NCBI RefSeq assembly: GCF_000482245.1
Contig: NZ_AWNH01000046.1
Span: 1 to 64,000 of the forward strand
DNA length: 64,000 bases
Source: Leptolyngbya sp. Heron Island J
GTDB taxonomy: Bacteria; Cyanobacteriota; Cyanobacteriia; Phormidesmidales; Phormidesmidaceae
Direction of reading: 5' to 3'
Shown: positions 38,994 to 45,996 of the stretch, piece by piece
How positions within the stretch are numbered: position 1 is the first letter of the stretch
Layout: the number at the start of each line of letters is the position of its first letter
Position numbers and translations under genes: made by a program
The notes under the pieces: model-generated
Database searches by the model: none
Told to the model about the DNA's origin: nothing
What the model saw: the letters and a program-made list of their open reading frames with translations, nothing else

Positions 38994-39449
38994 ATGGCGA
39001 TTAAGGTGGGTGATACGGCTCCGGATTTTACATTGCAGTCCCAGTCTGGGGAGTCGGTGACGCTATCTAGCTTTAAGGGTCAGAAGACTGTGGTGCTGTA
39101 TTTCTATCCCAAGGATGATACGCCTGGCTGCACTACGGAGTCCTGCACATTTCGTGATAGCTTCCAGGATTTTCAGGATCTGGGGGCTGAGGTGATTGGC
39201 ATTAGTAGTGATTCTCCAGAGTCACATCAAAAGTTTGCTGGCAAGTATAGTCTGCCGTTTACTTTGGTGAGTGATGCTGATTCAAGTGTGCGTAAGGCTT
39301 ATGGTGTACCGGCTACCCTAGGTTTGCTGCCAGGGCGTGTGACCTATGTGATTGATCAAAGCGGCACCGTTCGTCATGTGTTCAACTCCCAATTCAATCC
39401 TAAAAAGCACGTGGATGAAGCGCTTACAGTGTTGAAAGGGTTGGGCTGA
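38994..39449 (+). CDS. Peroxiredoxin, PrxQ/BCP type
   Basis: Thiol peroxidase that reduces hydrogen peroxide and organic peroxides with electrons from thioredoxin. The 151 residues have the peroxidatic cysteine C46 in PKDDTPGCTTES and a resolving cysteine C51 five residues later, the arrangement of the PrxQ/BCP subfamily with resolving Cys on the same helix. The downstream GLLPGRVTYVID core is complete. Its last 26 bases overlap the 3' end of the convergent cyclase gene, so antisense pairing between the two transcripts is possible. Confidence 0.95.
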   Translation: MAIKVGDTAPDFTLQSQSGESVTLSSFKGQKTVVLYFYPKDDTPGCTTESCTFRDSFQDFQDLGAEVIGISSDSPESHQKFAGKYSLPFTLVSDADSSVRKAYGVPATLGLLPGRVTYVIDQSGTVRHVFNSQFNPKKHVDEALTVLKGLG

Positions 39450-41679
39450 TTTGTTGATTTAGCCACGCGATGACTGCAGGCGACCGGGCTGTGAAGGTAA
39501 TCACATATTCTTGCTCGGTCTTGCCTTGCTGTTGCACTTTGGCATAAATGTCGGTTTCACGTACCTCTAGCGGCGCTGTCTGGGTCTGGATTGTCAGCTT
39601 AATGTTGGTGAGTATGCTGAGGGGCTCAACATCTTTGATGTGTAGCAAGGCTGTTTTGGCGGAGAGTTTGTGGAGACTTCCCTGATGATGTTGGGCTCCA
39701 ACTTGTTTGTTTTCTAGGGCTACGTATTCAATGGGGATGGTTTCAATTAGGGGCTCTAGGGGAAGTTCTTCTGTGGTAAGAGAAAGATTGTAAAAGTCGC
39801 CGCCGATGCCGGTGACGTCATAGATGGTGATGGGGCGTTTGATGCCTTTGGGGTAGACTTCGAGCTTGCTTTGGATAGCCAGGCGATGATTGTTGATGGT
39901 ATCCATCTCTTGGTGGGTGTCTTCGGAAATAAAGATTTGACCGCCTGTGGTGTAGGACTCGATGCGAAAGGTGAGGTTGACGGCACCGCCGATGACGCTG
40001 TATTTCGTTCGCTTCTCGGAGCCGATGTTGCCGACGACTACCTGGCCAGTGTTGATGCCGATGCCCATTTCTTGTTCAGGAAAGCCATTGGCCCGCATGG
40101 CGGCATTGACTTCGACCATGGCTTGTTGCATTGCGATCGCACATGCCACGGCCCGGTCGGGATGATTATCATTGGCCACCGTATTAGGAGCTCCAAAAAT
40201 CACCAAAATGCCATCCCCCATAAACTCATCAATGACGCCCTCATAGTCATTGATCACATCGGACATATAGCCCAGATATAGATTCAAAATTTTGACTACC
40301 TTTTCAGGGGGCAGCTGTTCTGATAGGGCTGTAAATCCCCGGAGGTCAGAGGTGAGAATCGTGATTTTACGAATCTCGCCGCCTAATCTAAGATTGTCAG
40401 GATTTTCCAGCAGATTTGCCACAATCTGATCGCTTAAATAGCGGCTAAAGGTGCGACGAATCTGGCTGGCACTGCGAGCCAAATAGGTATTGACGCCAGA
40501 AGCAGCGCCGACTAAAGCCATTAATGGCGGAATCACCGGCACCCACCAGCCTGCTAGCAATAATGCATAGGCACCCAGGACCAAAATCGAAGCAACGGCC
40601 ACCAGTAGAGCCATTTGACGCAGGAGCGTACGTTTGCCTGGATCGCGCTGTATCCAGGTGATTGTTGCTCCCAATGCAGCCCATAGAAAAATCCAGAGAA
40701 TTTCCATTGGTTCTGACCAGGTGCGGATCAAGGCTCGACCCTCTAAGGCCGCGCTGATGATTTGACTAGTAATATTGGCATGAATTTCTACCCCAGCCAT
40801 GGACTTGGGCAGGGCCAACATCTTACTGCTGTGGGGTACGAAGAATCTATCCTTCAGGCTTTCGGCTATAGAGCCAATCAGAATAATCCGATCTGTAGCC
40901 CAGTCATCGGCGATTTCATCATTAAGTACAGCTCTTAAGGGGACGGTTTCTATCAGCTCGCTACCGCCGCGATAATTAATTAATGTTTGATAGCCGCCAG
41001 CATCGGCCCGGACATACCCACCATCGTTAGCTTCCAACGGTCGAAAGACTGCGCCATTAAGCTGCCAGGAGTCTGTATTATCGACGGGTTCGGGGCCAAT
41101 CCCTTCAGCATCTAAATAAAGCAGGGCCAGATACAGGGCAAAACTGGGGGCCTGGTCACCTTCAGGGGTGGTCACCATCAGCAGTCCCCGTCGAATTGTA
41201 TTGTCGTTGTCTACAATGCCGTTGTTGATGCCAATTTGTCCTAGTTCTGCCAGGGTGGGGGCGGCATCAATCAGATCCCGCTCGGCATTGTCTCCTAAAG
41301 TGCTGCGAATACCTACCAGATTAGGGGTACTACGAAAAACTTGTTCTAGCTCGGTATGGCCGGGTTCTACGGGAACATCGCGAATAATATCGAGACCAAT
41401 CGCTCTAGGGTTTTGTTGAGCCAGTTTTGAAATTACTTCAGCATAAATTCCATCGGGGATAATAGCCTGGCCTAGTTCCCGAATGTCTTGCTCGTCGATG
41501 CCAACAATGGCAATCCGTGGGTCGGTCTCTTCAGGCCGCCACTGTAAATATTGGTCGTAGGTGCGCCACTCTAAGGGCTGTAACAGCCCTGCCGCCCTCA
41601 GAAGAACAACAAGAATGGTGGCAGTTGGCGTGGCAATGGCTACCCCGCGCCACTGCCACCACAGCTTTTTCAGGTTCAT
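39424..41679 (-). CDS. CHASE2-domain class III nucleotide cyclase
   Basis: 751 residues. A membrane-anchored extracytoplasmic CHASE2 sensor (about 40-310) is followed by three hydrophobic helices (about 320-400) and a class III cyclase domain (about 430-620). Both metal-binding Asp residues are present (TSDLRGFT and EFMGDGILV), with a lysine in KRTKYSVIG and the transition-state Asn/Arg in NLTFRIES. The usual base-contacting Asp of VIGDxVN is replaced by Gly (VIGGAVN), a variant common in CHASE2 cyclases. The last ~120 residues look like a degenerate PilZ-type beta barrel. The start codon overlaps the DUF928 stop (TAATG), so translation is coupled. cAMP is the likely product but cGMP is not excluded. 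Confidence 0.9.
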   Translation of the reverse strand: MNLKKLWWQWRGVAIATPTATILVVLLRAAGLLQPLEWRTYDQYLQWRPEETDPRIAIVGIDEQDIRELGQAIIPDGIYAEVISKLAQQNPRAIGLDIIRDVPVEPGHTELEQVFRSTPNLVGIRSTLGDNAERDLIDAAPTLAELGQIGINNGIVDNDNTIRRGLLMVTTPEGDQAPSFALYLALLYLDAEGIGPEPVDNTDSWQLNGAVFRPLEANDGGYVRADAGGYQTLINYRGGSELIETVPLRAVLNDEIADDWATDRIILIGSIAESLKDRFFVPHSSKMLALPKSMAGVEIHANITSQIISAALEGRALIRTWSEPMEILWIFLWAALGATITWIQRDPGKRTLLRQMALLVAVASILVLGAYALLLAGWWVPVIPPLMALVGAASGVNTYLARSASQIRRTFSRYLSDQIVANLLENPDNLRLGGEIRKITILTSDLRGFTALSEQLPPEKVVKILNLYLGYMSDVINDYEGVIDEFMGDGILVIFGAPNTVANDNHPDRAVACAIAMQQAMVEVNAAMRANGFPEQEMGIGINTGQVVVGNIGSEKRTKYSVIGGAVNLTFRIESYTTGGQIFISEDTHQEMDTINNHRLAIQSKLEVYPKGIKRPITIYDVTGIGGDFYNLSLTTEELPLEPLIETIPIEYVALENKQVGAQHHQGSLHKLSAKTALLHIKDVEPLSILTNIKLTIQTQTAPLEVRETDIYAKVQQQGKTEQEYVITFTARSPAVIAWLNQQISPTLSTL

Positions 41680-42494
41680 TATTCAGCGCCGCTGTGGTTG
41701 ATGCCATCCAGTAGCTGCTGCAGGTCACTGGAATGGTTGGGGGTTGCTGTCGGTGTCCTTGCTGGGACTTCTCCTGCCAAATCATCCTGACCTAAGATGG
41801 GTTGTGCAGCGACAGAATCGAGGTCAACCGATGTGAGTAGTTCGGCCCAGGCAGTTGGGTTTTGAGACCGAATAGAGGCGGCTAAGGCGATGGTTTCTTG
41901 CCATGCACCAGCGGCTGCATAGAGTTCGGCCTGGGCCAGTGGATCATTGGCCACGGCGTTGAGTTCGGCTAAGAAATCGGGACTGGCATCAAGCCGCTGA
42001 ATGCCACCACCCAGCAGGACATCGTCTCCACGATCGTCTGGGTCACAAATCAGGGCAAAATCCCAGTAGTATAGACTGCCGGAGGCAAAGGTGGGGGTGA
42101 CGCCGTCTGCCTGGTATCTGGGCAGGTCGATTGGGAGGGTGCCAGGGGTCTCAGGCAGTGCAATAGCCTGTTGAAAAATTTCATCCCCCAGTTCATTGAC
42201 AATGGTCAACTCTGCGCCAGCGGCTACGGTTTCTGGAATGTAGAACCAGAGGGCCATAGGAATATTGGTGTCGGCTCCAAATGCGGTTGCGATCGCATTA
42301 TGAGGCAACAACGATGTCAAGGAAGGCCGATTTTGAGGGTCCAGACAGATCTCACCGCGAGTCGCCATGGATGGTCCCCGAGCAGGGGCACCGCGATCGC
42401 GGGTTTGAGGAAACTCTAAAGCATAACTAGGACCAGCACCAACCACTATCAGGGTAGCAAGCGCAGCTGGAATACAACGCAAAGGAATAGACAT
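41679..42494 (-). CDS. DUF928 family exported protein
   Basis: 271 residues with a signal peptide ending GPSYALEF. The DUF928 family pattern includes ALWFYIPETVAAGAELTIV, then YYWDFALICDPDDRGDDV and a mid-region helix-rich part. A Pro/Thr-rich C-terminal stretch follows. DUF928 proteins are often encoded next to CHASE2 proteins in cyanobacteria; this gene ends at the start of such a cyclase gene with a one-base overlap. It probably binds or presents a ligand to the CHASE2 domain in the periplasm, which is inference from gene pairing only. Confidence 0.85.
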   Translation of the reverse strand: MSIPLRCIPAALATLIVVGAGPSYALEFPQTRDRGAPARGPSMATRGEICLDPQNRPSLTSLLPHNAIATAFGADTNIPMALWFYIPETVAAGAELTIVNELGDEIFQQAIALPETPGTLPIDLPRYQADGVTPTFASGSLYYWDFALICDPDDRGDDVLLGGGIQRLDASPDFLAELNAVANDPLAQAELYAAAGAWQETIALAASIRSQNPTAWAELLTSVDLDSVAAQPILGQDDLAGEVPARTPTATPNHSSDLQQLLDGINHSGAE

Positions 42495-42822: not shown

Positions 42823-43779
42823 TCAGTCATCCTCTTCAGGACGCTCAAATGAGACTTCGAGATCAATGGAGCGTTCATCATCCCTGAGGCCAAAATACCG
42901 AGCTTCGATCCCTGTAATATCCGTATCAGCATCCAACGGCACTAAAGAGGTGACCGAACCCAATGACAATAAATCCCCCGGTCTCAGGTCTACACCCTGG
43001 CTCTGCAAAGTATCCCGCAACCAGCGCACAGCATTAATTGGATGTCCCAATAAGGCGGTACTATTTCCTTCAACCAAAAATTGACCCCTGGCATTTTTGA
43101 GGACAACTCGAATATTGGCCAGCTGATCCAGACCACTATCTTCAGACTTCAGATCAATTGGGTCGCCCATGACACCATATCGCGCCCCGGCATTGACGGC
43201 TACCATGGCCCCAGCATTAATCGAAGCGTCTTCTTCATAAATCAGGTCGGGTAGCTCTAAAAAAGGAATGACGGCATCCAAAGCAGCCAATAATTCTAAA
43301 TCTGTTTCTGCTTGATTAATATCGGCGCTACCGACCCGGACCATCAAATCCCCTTCAGCTTGAGGGCGGCTGCCAAACTCAAAGGGCAACTCTGCTCCAC
43401 TTTCAAGCAGCATATTCTCTAGCAGGAAGCCGTAAAGCGGGTGGGTAATGCCTAACTGTGACTGGGATTTGGGATTAGTTAGCGCCACTTTGTAGCCGAC
43501 GATTACACCTTCATCGCCGGCTTCGCTCATTAAACGACGGACAAAGTCGATGTGAATTGAGTCAATTTGGCGTGATGATAGACCTTCCGTCAGGATAGGG
43601 GCTGGATAACCAGCGGTGTAGTGCTGGAACAATGAAACTGCTACCAGGTCTGTATAGCTTTGGGCTAACCGTAAGGGTTGTAATGGCTTAGGCCCCAACT
43701 CCTGGGCTTGAATAGTTGTGGCTCCACCAGCCATGAGAATGCCGAGGCCCATGCCCTGTAGCCAGCGCCAGTATTTCAT
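42823..43779 (-). CDS. Exported homologue of 2-keto-4-pentenoate hydratase (FAH superfamily)
   Basis: 318 residues. The first ~25 form a signal peptide ending TTIQAQE, which is unusual because the MhpD/FAH superfamily is cytosolic. The core keeps MhpD-type motifs: VGYKVALTNPKSQSQLG followed by HPLYGFL, an acidic pair in RPQAEGDLMV at the position of the metal-binding ExE motif (second acid is Asp) and a third acid in VIPFLELPDL. The C-terminal region ends with an acidic EEDD tail. A metal-dependent hydratase, decarboxylase or fumarylacetoacetase-like reaction is possible; no pathway partner is nearby. Confidence 0.75.
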   Translation of the reverse strand: MKYWRWLQGMGLGILMAGGATTIQAQELGPKPLQPLRLAQSYTDLVAVSLFQHYTAGYPAPILTEGLSSRQIDSIHIDFVRRLMSEAGDEGVIVGYKVALTNPKSQSQLGITHPLYGFLLENMLLESGAELPFEFGSRPQAEGDLMVRVGSADINQAETDLELLAALDAVIPFLELPDLIYEEDASINAGAMVAVNAGARYGVMGDPIDLKSEDSGLDQLANIRVVLKNARGQFLVEGNSTALLGHPINAVRWLRDTLQSQGVDLRPGDLLSLGSVTSLVPLDADTDITGIEARYFGLRDDERSIDLEVSFERPEEDD

Positions 43780-44151
43780 ACTCCGTTCCCTTACTTTTAG
43801 TAAATCGTCTAAAGATTAAATTTATCTGGCTGGCGTCGTCTGTTGATCTAAAACACCCCTAAAAATTTTGCCAGCACCAGTGTTCAGAAGATTATCTAGC
43901 TTACAAAGATTTTTCTATAAATGCATCAATAAAGGTGACGCCTGGCCAACTGGCTTGTGTAGAATTTGTTTTGTACGTGAAGCTGAACATGTGCTCACAT
44001 GGTCTTTCTAACTTCTGTGTGCCCTGACTTCTTTTTAATCTCCCTCGCCAATCTTCCAGAGCATTTTGTTACTGTATATAAAGACATCTACGATCATTCC
44101 CATAGGCGATGGTGCGACCGTATGTCCGTTGTCTTAGCGAAGTCATAACCT
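43780..44151. promoter_or_regulatory. Divergent region hydratase-like / clpS
   Basis: A 372-bp AT-rich region between divergent genes with no open frame of interest, presumably with two promoters. No operator or hairpin could be identified with confidence. Confidence 0.35.
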
Positions 44152-44781: not shown

Positions 44782-44829
44782 AGAAACGGTGCTTAGGGTC
44801 TTTTGACGGTAGTCAATGGTCAGCAGTTA

Positions 44830-45996
44830 ATGGGGAATAGAGAGGACAGGAGAATTTTACCCACTAGCGCTCAGCGGCAAGAAGGGAAGGCACGATTTGC
44901 GATCGCCAAAGGCATGGCTACGGGTACCGCAACCGCTTTTTATCGCTCTACCAGCCAGATAGGTCGTGATCTAGCCGTGTTGGCGGCGGCCATCTATCGT
45001 CAGCAGCACGGCCGGTTGCGTGTCATTGATGCCATGACCGGCTGTGGTGTTCGTCCTCTACGCTATCATTTGGAGGCTGGTGCTGAATGGGTCTGGGCCA
45101 ATGAGGGCAATCCTGACCTACAGGCGGTGCTCAGTGCAAATTTACACCAGGGGATGGCTCCTGACACTTATCGCATTACCCATCAGGATGCCAACCAGTT
45201 ATTTTTTAGCTGTGCCCAGCAGCAAGACTATTACGACCTGATCGATATCGATAGCTTTGGCAGTCCTACGCCCTTTGTCAATACAGCACTGTGGGCTATT
45301 AAGTTCGGAGGACTGCTCTATCTCACCAGCACCGATGGCCGAACGACCAGCGGTCATGCTTTAGAGAGAAGCGTGCAGATGTATGGGGCTTGTGCCCGCA
45401 GTCATCCTGCCGTTCACGAGCAGGGATTAAGGCTGTTGATTGGCTGTGCAGCTAAGCAGGCCGCTACCAGAGGGTTTCACATTGAGCCGGTATTCTCGAT
45501 TTTTAATGGCTCTATCCATCGGGTGATGGTACGGGTTGTGACTGGCTCTTGGCAGGACAAGCACTATGGATTTTTGGCCTATTGCCACAGCTGTGGTCAG
45601 TTTCGTACGGCTGATTGGCGACAGCTGGGTCAGCTGGGCTGCGAAGTTTGTGGAACAGCACCGGTAGTTAGCGGACCCATGTGGCTAGGGCCACTCCATG
45701 ACGCAGCCTATATCGCTCAGATGGCTGCTTTGGCCCATCAGTGGCGTTGGCCCCAACGACTACAGCGGCTATTGGCGATCATGGGTGAGGAGACGGCGAT
45801 GCCCCCTTACTACTATCCTCTGGCGGAGATTGGGCGTCGGGGCCAGATGGATGTGCCGGCAAGGGATCGGTTGATTAGGAGGATTTGCGATCGCTCTTAT
45901 CGCGCCACCCGCACCCATCTCGATTCCCAAGCCATTAAAACAAATGCCCCTTTAGCCGTTTGTCTAGAAATCGCTAGGAGCTTACGTGCTGGCTAA
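44830..45996 (+). CDS. Trm1-like tRNA (guanine-N2)-methyltransferase
   Basis: 388 residues from the ATG at 44830 (a TTG at 44803 is also open). The protein has the S-adenosylmethionine domain of Trm1, which makes N2,N2-dimethylguanosine at position 26 of tRNA. Seen are an N-terminal EGKARF and an AFYRS segment, the SAM motif DAMTGCGVRPLRY, and the catalytic motif DIDSFGSP, where other members have DIDPFGSP. A zinc-type C-terminal part (CHSC...CEVCG) ends the catalytic core. Trm1 is common in archaea and eukaryotes and restricted in bacteria, Aquifex and cyanobacteria being examples. Confidence 0.85.
   Translation: MGNREDRRILPTSAQRQEGKARFAIAKGMATGTATAFYRSTSQIGRDLAVLAAAIYRQQHGRLRVIDAMTGCGVRPLRYHLEAGAEWVWANEGNPDLQAVLSANLHQGMAPDTYRITHQDANQLFFSCAQQQDYYDLIDIDSFGSPTPFVNTALWAIKFGGLLYLTSTDGRTTSGHALERSVQMYGACARSHPAVHEQGLRLLIGCAAKQAATRGFHIEPVFSIFNGSIHRVMVRVVTGSWQDKHYGFLAYCHSCGQFRTADWRQLGQLGCEVCGTAPVVSGPMWLGPLHDAAYIAQMAALAHQWRWPQRLQRLLAIMGEETAMPPYYYPLAEIGRRGQMDVPARDRLIRRICDRSYRATRTHLDSQAIKTNAPLAVCLEIARSLRAG

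Follow-up and report, generated by a model that had tools for sequence, protein, structure and literature searches.

An MhpD-related protein with a Sec-type leader in Leptolyngbya sp. Heron Island J, and its exported relatives

Closest described systems and the window protein

Proteins of the FAH/MhpD superfamily are normally cytosolic. The closest described systems to the protein considered here are 2-keto-4-pentenoate hydratase (MhpD, DmpE, and BphH; structures 1sv6, 2wqt, and 8ih6_A), 4-oxalocrotonate/2-oxo-3-hexenedioate decarboxylase (NahK and DmpH; 5d2f-5d2k and 8ih6_F), and 2-oxo-hept-4-ene-1,7-dioate hydratase (HpcG and HpaH; 2eb4-2eb6). In MhpD and HpcG, three Glu residues and one Lys are reported to form the metal site and the catalytic lysine (structural papers by Izumi in 2007 and by Guimaraes in 2016). 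FAH-type proteins with a second role have also been described, e.g., YisK of B. subtilis. A precedent in kind for the export of a normally cytosolic enzyme comes from the shikimate pathway, where exported chorismate mutase-cyclohexadienyl dehydratase fusions are rare and are suggested by the authors describing them to have a role in signalling; their fold and reaction are unrelated to those of the MhpD-like protein (PMC10520331). Among the titles and abstracts listed by a literature search, with most subscription journals outside its coverage, none described an exported MhpD/FAH clade, and the main text of a paper on the exoproteome of Anabaena PCC 7120 does not contain the term “hydratase” (PMC4390845).

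The gene analysed here lies in a 64,000-nucleotide stretch of Leptolyngbya sp. Heron Island J (hereafter the window), and its product is a Sec-type leader followed by the fold of 2-keto-4-pentenoate hydratase (MhpD). An MhpD-related reading frame with a secretion leader had been proposed at this place in an earlier note, and it proved to be real, as judged from its exact coordinates (Table 1), homology to PDB entries, a codon test, and leaders throughout the clade. The single window sequence matched 1sv6 and 2wqt at a phmmer E of 5e-18, and a profile of the exported clade matched 8ih6_A at E 3.1e-27, the match spanning MhpD residues 5-254; on these matches, the relation to MhpD is far beyond chance. 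An AlphaFold model of the window protein (mean pLDDT 60.2, pTM 0.64; leader and several loops below 50, the first 40 residues with a mean below 50) has MhpD 2wqt as its best fold match (Z 23.6, rmsd 3.0, 232 residues). Next come 8ih6_F, NahK, and HpcG, and the remaining FAH-superfamily structures reach Z 12-18. Since the alignment behind the model held MhpD-type rows, it supports the fold, but not independently of homology; a model made without the leader was worse (pLDDT 39) and was not used. At the level of fold, phmmer, the profile, and the Z of 23.6 (from a model with pLDDT 60) place the protein in the MhpD branch of the FAH superfamily.

The exported protein resembles MhpD, DmpE, and BphH in fold, in a near full-length alignment, and in keeping the GxK Lys, the first and third acids, the LGHP...W motif, and the GD motif. 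It differs from them in its leader, in E-x-D for E-x-E, in the lack of the PDFG Asp and of VADNAS, and in SLG for SGA in the GD(L/V) motif, with about 25% identity and bit scores far below the equivalog cut-offs. NahK/DmpH (Z 21.9 and 22.9) and HpcG/HpaH (Z 21.4) belong to the same fold group, and the site differences from them are the same as those from MhpD. Against the NCBIfam models, the window protein scored 77.2 bits for NF008461 (MhpD; cut-off 350), 79.6 for TIGR03220 (DmpE; 408.8), 62.2 for TIGR03218 (DmpH; 350.55), and 59 for TIGR02312 (HpaH; 351.5). None of the 11 exported members scanned (the window protein and 10 others) reached an NCBIfam cut-off, their scores with the hydratase and decarboxylase models being 32-87 bits against cut-offs of at least 350; the four cytosolic rows scanned were also below the cut-offs, yet scored up to 310. 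The window protein had no Pfam match at E 1, PF01557 FAA_hydrolase (gathering threshold 23.9 bits) included, and this threshold was passed by two of the 10 other exported members scanned (L074 and L076; two of 11 with the window protein) and by all four cytosolic rows scanned. A standard MhpD, DmpE, DmpH, or HpaH identity was rejected on these scores and on the site residues described below; the exported protein is not a standard meta-cleavage hydratase.

Table 1. Features of the window around the exported MhpD-like gene
Feature	Coordinates	Strand	Basis
Exported MhpD/FAH-like protein, 318 aa, ATG at 43779	42823..43779	(-)	ORF, PDB homology, fold comparison, codon test
Sec-type signal peptide, residues 1-25, cleavage predicted after A25 (by eye)	43705..43779	(-)	Hydropathy, codon test
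Lys97 codon, aligned with the GxK Lys of MhpD	43489..43491	(-)	Column counts
E142-G143-D144, E-x-D pair replacing E-x-E	43348..43356	(-)	Column counts
Glu175 codon, third acidic position	43255..43257	(-)	Column counts
Purine-rich ribosome-binding region just before the ATG, AAGGGAACGGAG	43780..43796	(-)	Consensus by eye
DUF928 protein, next gene downstream, same strand, 328-base gap	41679..42494	(-)	PF06051, E 2.4e-33
CHASE2 + adenylate/guanylate cyclase protein, overlapping the DUF928 ORF by one base	39424..41679	(-)	Domain scan
Trm1-type N2,N2-dimethylguanosine tRNA methyltransferase	44803..45996	(+)	PF02005, E 2e-68

An exported clade and its leaders

The window protein is the only match in its own genome (8.06 Mb assembly). 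A draw of the phylum gave matches in 11 of 386 genomes, among them G001 with cytosolic-type matches only and G016 with both types, so that 10 of the 386 carry the exported type. Matches were also found in 11 of 63 genomes of the family, including all eight in the window’s genus, and in 16 of 388 genomes of the class at E 1e-10; the three draws overlap and together hold 22 distinct Cyanobacteriota-phylum genomes with the exported type. A proteobacterial draw (398 genomes from the phylum of G634, a record titled as Rhodospirillales) contributed seven matching genomes at E 1e-36, a limit chosen to be stricter than the E of about 1e-30 that cytosolic relatives reach with the clade profile. The earlier note had suggested looking for the architecture across cyanobacteria; these 22 genomes place it in a wider set of them, and the seven proteobacterial genomes show that it is not only cyanobacterial. 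The clade was sampled in the window’s phylum and in this one proteobacterial draw, giving 29 members in all (22 and seven), and the 27 full-length ones were analysed; those left out are from G443 (L051/L066, 136 aa with a leader-like N-terminus) and G485 (L065, 229 aa with the N-terminus off the contig). A separate contig scan returned relatives with 78-84% identity in Adonisia turfae, Leptolyngbya sp. PCC 7375, Leptothoe kymatousa, and others, which are apparently the same genomes as the genus set, judged by coordinates. Pattern stretches from viral contigs (34 and 19) included no relative, and no match was found in phages. Plasmid records matching three queries numbered 92, 293, and 443, all with less than 60% identity; among the matches listed for each query (10 to 20), identity did not exceed about 32%, and those with a name carried annotations as ordinary hydratases, decarboxylases, or FAH-family proteins.

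In a tree of 44 rows, 27 exported and 17 cytosolic (the latter mostly Rhodospirillales), all exported rows lie on one side of a single branch of length 2.75 with support 100/100; the root is a midpoint only, and the term “clade” therefore holds only for a root placed among the cytosolic rows. Long branches are carried by L069, L077, and L031. Judged from the aligned sequences, the exported members form a separate, sparsely distributed branch with its own ancestry.

The leader of the window protein, MKYWRWLQGMGLGILMAGGATTIQA with Q as the residue after the cleavage site, combines K and R in its n-region with an h-region free of charges and Ala at -1. The cleavage site was read by eye, and no twin arginine was seen, also by eye, in residues 1-25. 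In eight genus sequences (the window and L002-L008), residues 2-25 have a pS of 0.576 and a pN of 0.094, and the resulting pN/pS of 0.16 is like the 0.15 of the body (residues 42-318), indicating protein-level purifying selection in both. In the first 22 codons, variability was 0.108 at the first, 0.006 at the second, and 0.261 at the third codon position, and over the 60 bases upstream of the ATG it was 0.412, 0.487, and 0.412 by phase, with no codon phase. The low pN/pS of the leader and the unphased upstream bases place the start of translation at the annotated ATG or very close to it, and the codon evolution of the leader indicates that it is selected as protein. An internal start, which the earlier note had weighed as the route to a normal cytosolic protein, is excluded on these two grounds. 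The purine-rich region before the ATG resembles, on reading by eye, the upstream sequences of genus relatives; a promoter and terminator scan around the gene returned sites no more numerous than in shuffles.

Hydropathy was measured as the best uncharged 10-residue stretch in the reading frame between the stop that precedes it and a point 45 residues ahead of GxK, so that the choice of start codon does not matter. All 27 exported rows have such a stretch with a mean hydropathy of at least 1.61, whereas none of the 17 cytosolic relatives reaches this threshold (maximum 1.14). The window leader, at 1.61, is the lowest of the 27, though none of the 17 cytosolic relatives comes up to it. For L007 and L074 the highest-scoring stretch lies upstream of the chosen start, and the chosen starts give 1.8 and 2.42. 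Because this threshold is also passed by 10 of 38 window ORFs of at least 200 aa, some of which probably encode membrane proteins, one leader alone is weak evidence; the family-wide pattern together with the codon test makes the evidence strong. A signal peptide is present at the true N-terminus and under selection, with cleavage predicted.

Other features near the mature N-terminus, cysteine pairs and lipobox-like motifs, are typical of exported proteins. Two cysteines 32-33 residues apart are found in eight rows, namely all seven proteobacterial ones and the cyanobacterial L028, with the first cysteine at or just after the presumed cleavage site, which suggests an oxidising compartment; the window and genus proteins contain no cysteine. 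Lipobox-like LPSC and LSAC occur in the cyanobacterial L020 and L025. Two exported members have unusual N-terminal regions. That at L021:1168-2172 either begins with some 29 residues of basic extension ahead of the hydrophobic leader or starts later, and a possible lipobox-like LVQC comes after the leader; that at L064:1492-2631 has an acidic low-complexity insert of about 60 residues between leader and domain.

Active-site residues

The window protein carries VGYKVALTNPKSQSQLG, an E-G-D pair (E142 and D144), and a further Glu (E175). By column counts, the Lys aligned with K97, E142, and E175 are each invariant in the 27 exported and 17 cytosolic rows, whereas position 144 is Asp in 27/27 exported and Glu in 17/17 cytosolic rows. 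In every exported row, L, V, A, or I stands where the QPDFG motif has its Asp, a residue kept in 11 of the 17 cytosolic rows. At position 195, where VADNAS has its Asp, 16/17 cytosolic rows have Asp and 22/27 exported rows V or I, and the VADNAS motif as a whole has become A[VI]NVGAR in the exported clade. Markers of the exported side are R200 (25/27), S272 (27/27), and Y295 (26/27). The GxK Lys and the acidic positions that characterise the MhpD branch of the FAH superfamily are present, with Asp as the second acid; the E-x-E pair and the PDFG Asp of a functional MhpD type are absent from all 27 exported rows.

The earlier claim that the MhpD motifs are kept can be retained for K97, E142, and E175 and has to be given up for the second acid (Asp in 27/27), the PDFG Asp (lost in 27/27), and VADNAS. 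Its related concern, that the metal-binding acids might be missing, is answered by the alignment, in which the acidic site positions are kept in 27/27 members. From such columns, the invariant K97, E142, D144, and E175 make up the pattern expected of a working site. With Glu changed to Asp, the PDFG Asp gone, and another motif in place of VADNAS, catalysis could be altered or lost, and the lost Asp positions argue against exactly the reaction of MhpD.

Neighbourhood and possible function

The direct neighbours scanned (DUF928, CHASE2-cyclase, ClpS, DUF2103, and TRM) are not catabolic, and with the leader they support the earlier suggestion of an extracytoplasmic MhpD/FAH-type protein that lacks catabolic neighbours. 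The DmpG/MhpE aldolase model TIGR03217 had no match above its cut-off in the same genome, nor in any of 14 control genomes, a scan with no positive control. In the genus, ClpS, DUF2103, and TRM lie on one side of the gene, and DUF928 and the CHASE2-cyclase on the other, DUF928 in seven of the eight loci and the cyclase in six, the remainder being short contigs or stretches. The association of these two genes with the hydratase is confined to the genus, and outside it the order is gone; no operon logic across the clade emerged, as the ORFs around 17 non-window loci include conserved neighbours within the genus only. DUF928 proteins are encoded in 50 of the 63 family genomes, with many copies per genome, against 11 of 63 for the hydratase, and as DUF928 is this common and multicopy, its link to the hydratase is suggestive at most; as a candidate functional partner it was set aside as weak.

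Elsewhere in the clade, L036 and L039 share a local pair of an 823-845 aa protein and a lipase-like gene, and L049 and L050 have a methyltransferase-like gene near the exported member. In the proteobacterial L078, L079, and L080, an iron-containing alcohol dehydrogenase is divergent from the exported hydratase, and two of these loci have an esterase and a thioesterase-acetyltransferase protein downstream. At L040:1989-3278, on a small contig of G016 (another class of the window’s phylum), an Amidohydro_2 protein is directly upstream of the exported hydratase, and this genome also has two adjacent cytosolic-type relatives. In the window, the Trm1-type gene, from a family found mainly in archaea and eukaryotes, lies behind the ClpS and DUF2103 genes, an arrangement kept in the genus loci.

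We consider it reasonably likely that the protein is exported by Sec and works as a metal-dependent enzyme, one of the MhpD branch of the FAH superfamily, with a small 2-oxo acid or its enol as substrate, and the window protein probably does its chemistry outside the cytoplasm. What we infer for it, namely metal binding, catalysis, compartment, and type of substrate, would fit together as follows. After Sec export the leader would be removed, probably after A25 or nearby, and the mature protein would fold in the periplasm or thylakoid lumen. A divalent cation would be held by E142, D144, and E175, and a small 2-oxo acid or enol bound to the metal would be polarised by K97 near the site for acid-base chemistry, the reaction being possibly a hydration, a tautomerisation, or a C-C cleavage.

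The main alternative, which we regard as rather unlikely, is an exported binding or sensor protein without catalysis, in which the old active site holds a small keto acid or a metal. The loss of two Asp positions of MhpD-type motifs (115 and 195), a pathway context that is not conserved outside the genus, and, within it, the adjoining DUF928 and CHASE2-domain cyclase genes would all suit such a protein; however, Lys97 and the three acids do not vary among the 27 members, although a pure binder would be expected to drift at some of these positions, and the change at the second acid, Glu to Asp, is conservative. A structural or scaffold role for a membrane-anchored or lumenal protein, with the fold kept and the chemistry incidental, appears improbable: the lipobox-like motifs of L020 and L025 suggest that some members may be tethered, and YisK is a precedent for a second role, but conservation is centred on the site residues. 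That the protein is an ordinary cytosolic meta-cleavage hydratase, its leader an annotation artefact and its true start further in, is hardly credible, since, for all that the superfamily is normally cytosolic and the window leader only moderately hydrophobic, codon evolution in the leader is that of protein-coding sequence (pN/pS 0.16, almost no variation at second positions, no phase in the bases upstream), leaders are found in 27/27 clade members against 0/17 cytosolic relatives, and NCBIfam scores of 32-87 bits compare with cut-offs of at least 350 and with up to 310 for cytosolic relatives.

The reading as an exported metal-dependent enzyme can be carried further in a form that is a long shot: the exported clade would act in the periplasm as an enzyme family with a chemistry of its own, directed at released 2-oxo acids or enols, and, in the genus, its substrate or product would cue the periplasmic CHASE2 domain of the adjacent cyclase. 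DUF928 would serve as intermediary, and a repurposed catabolic fold would in this way tune cyclic-nucleotide signalling.

The exported clade forms a monophyletic branch, marked for export, of a catabolic fold that textbooks place in the cytosol, and one metal-site acid is changed in every member examined. Such a branch implies extracytoplasmic 2-oxo-acid chemistry that current family models do not name, as seen in the NCBIfam and Pfam scans. The protein is small, soluble in design, and easy to express, which makes its activity and location directly testable; an active protein would join the small number of central or catabolic enzymes for which an exported version is known.
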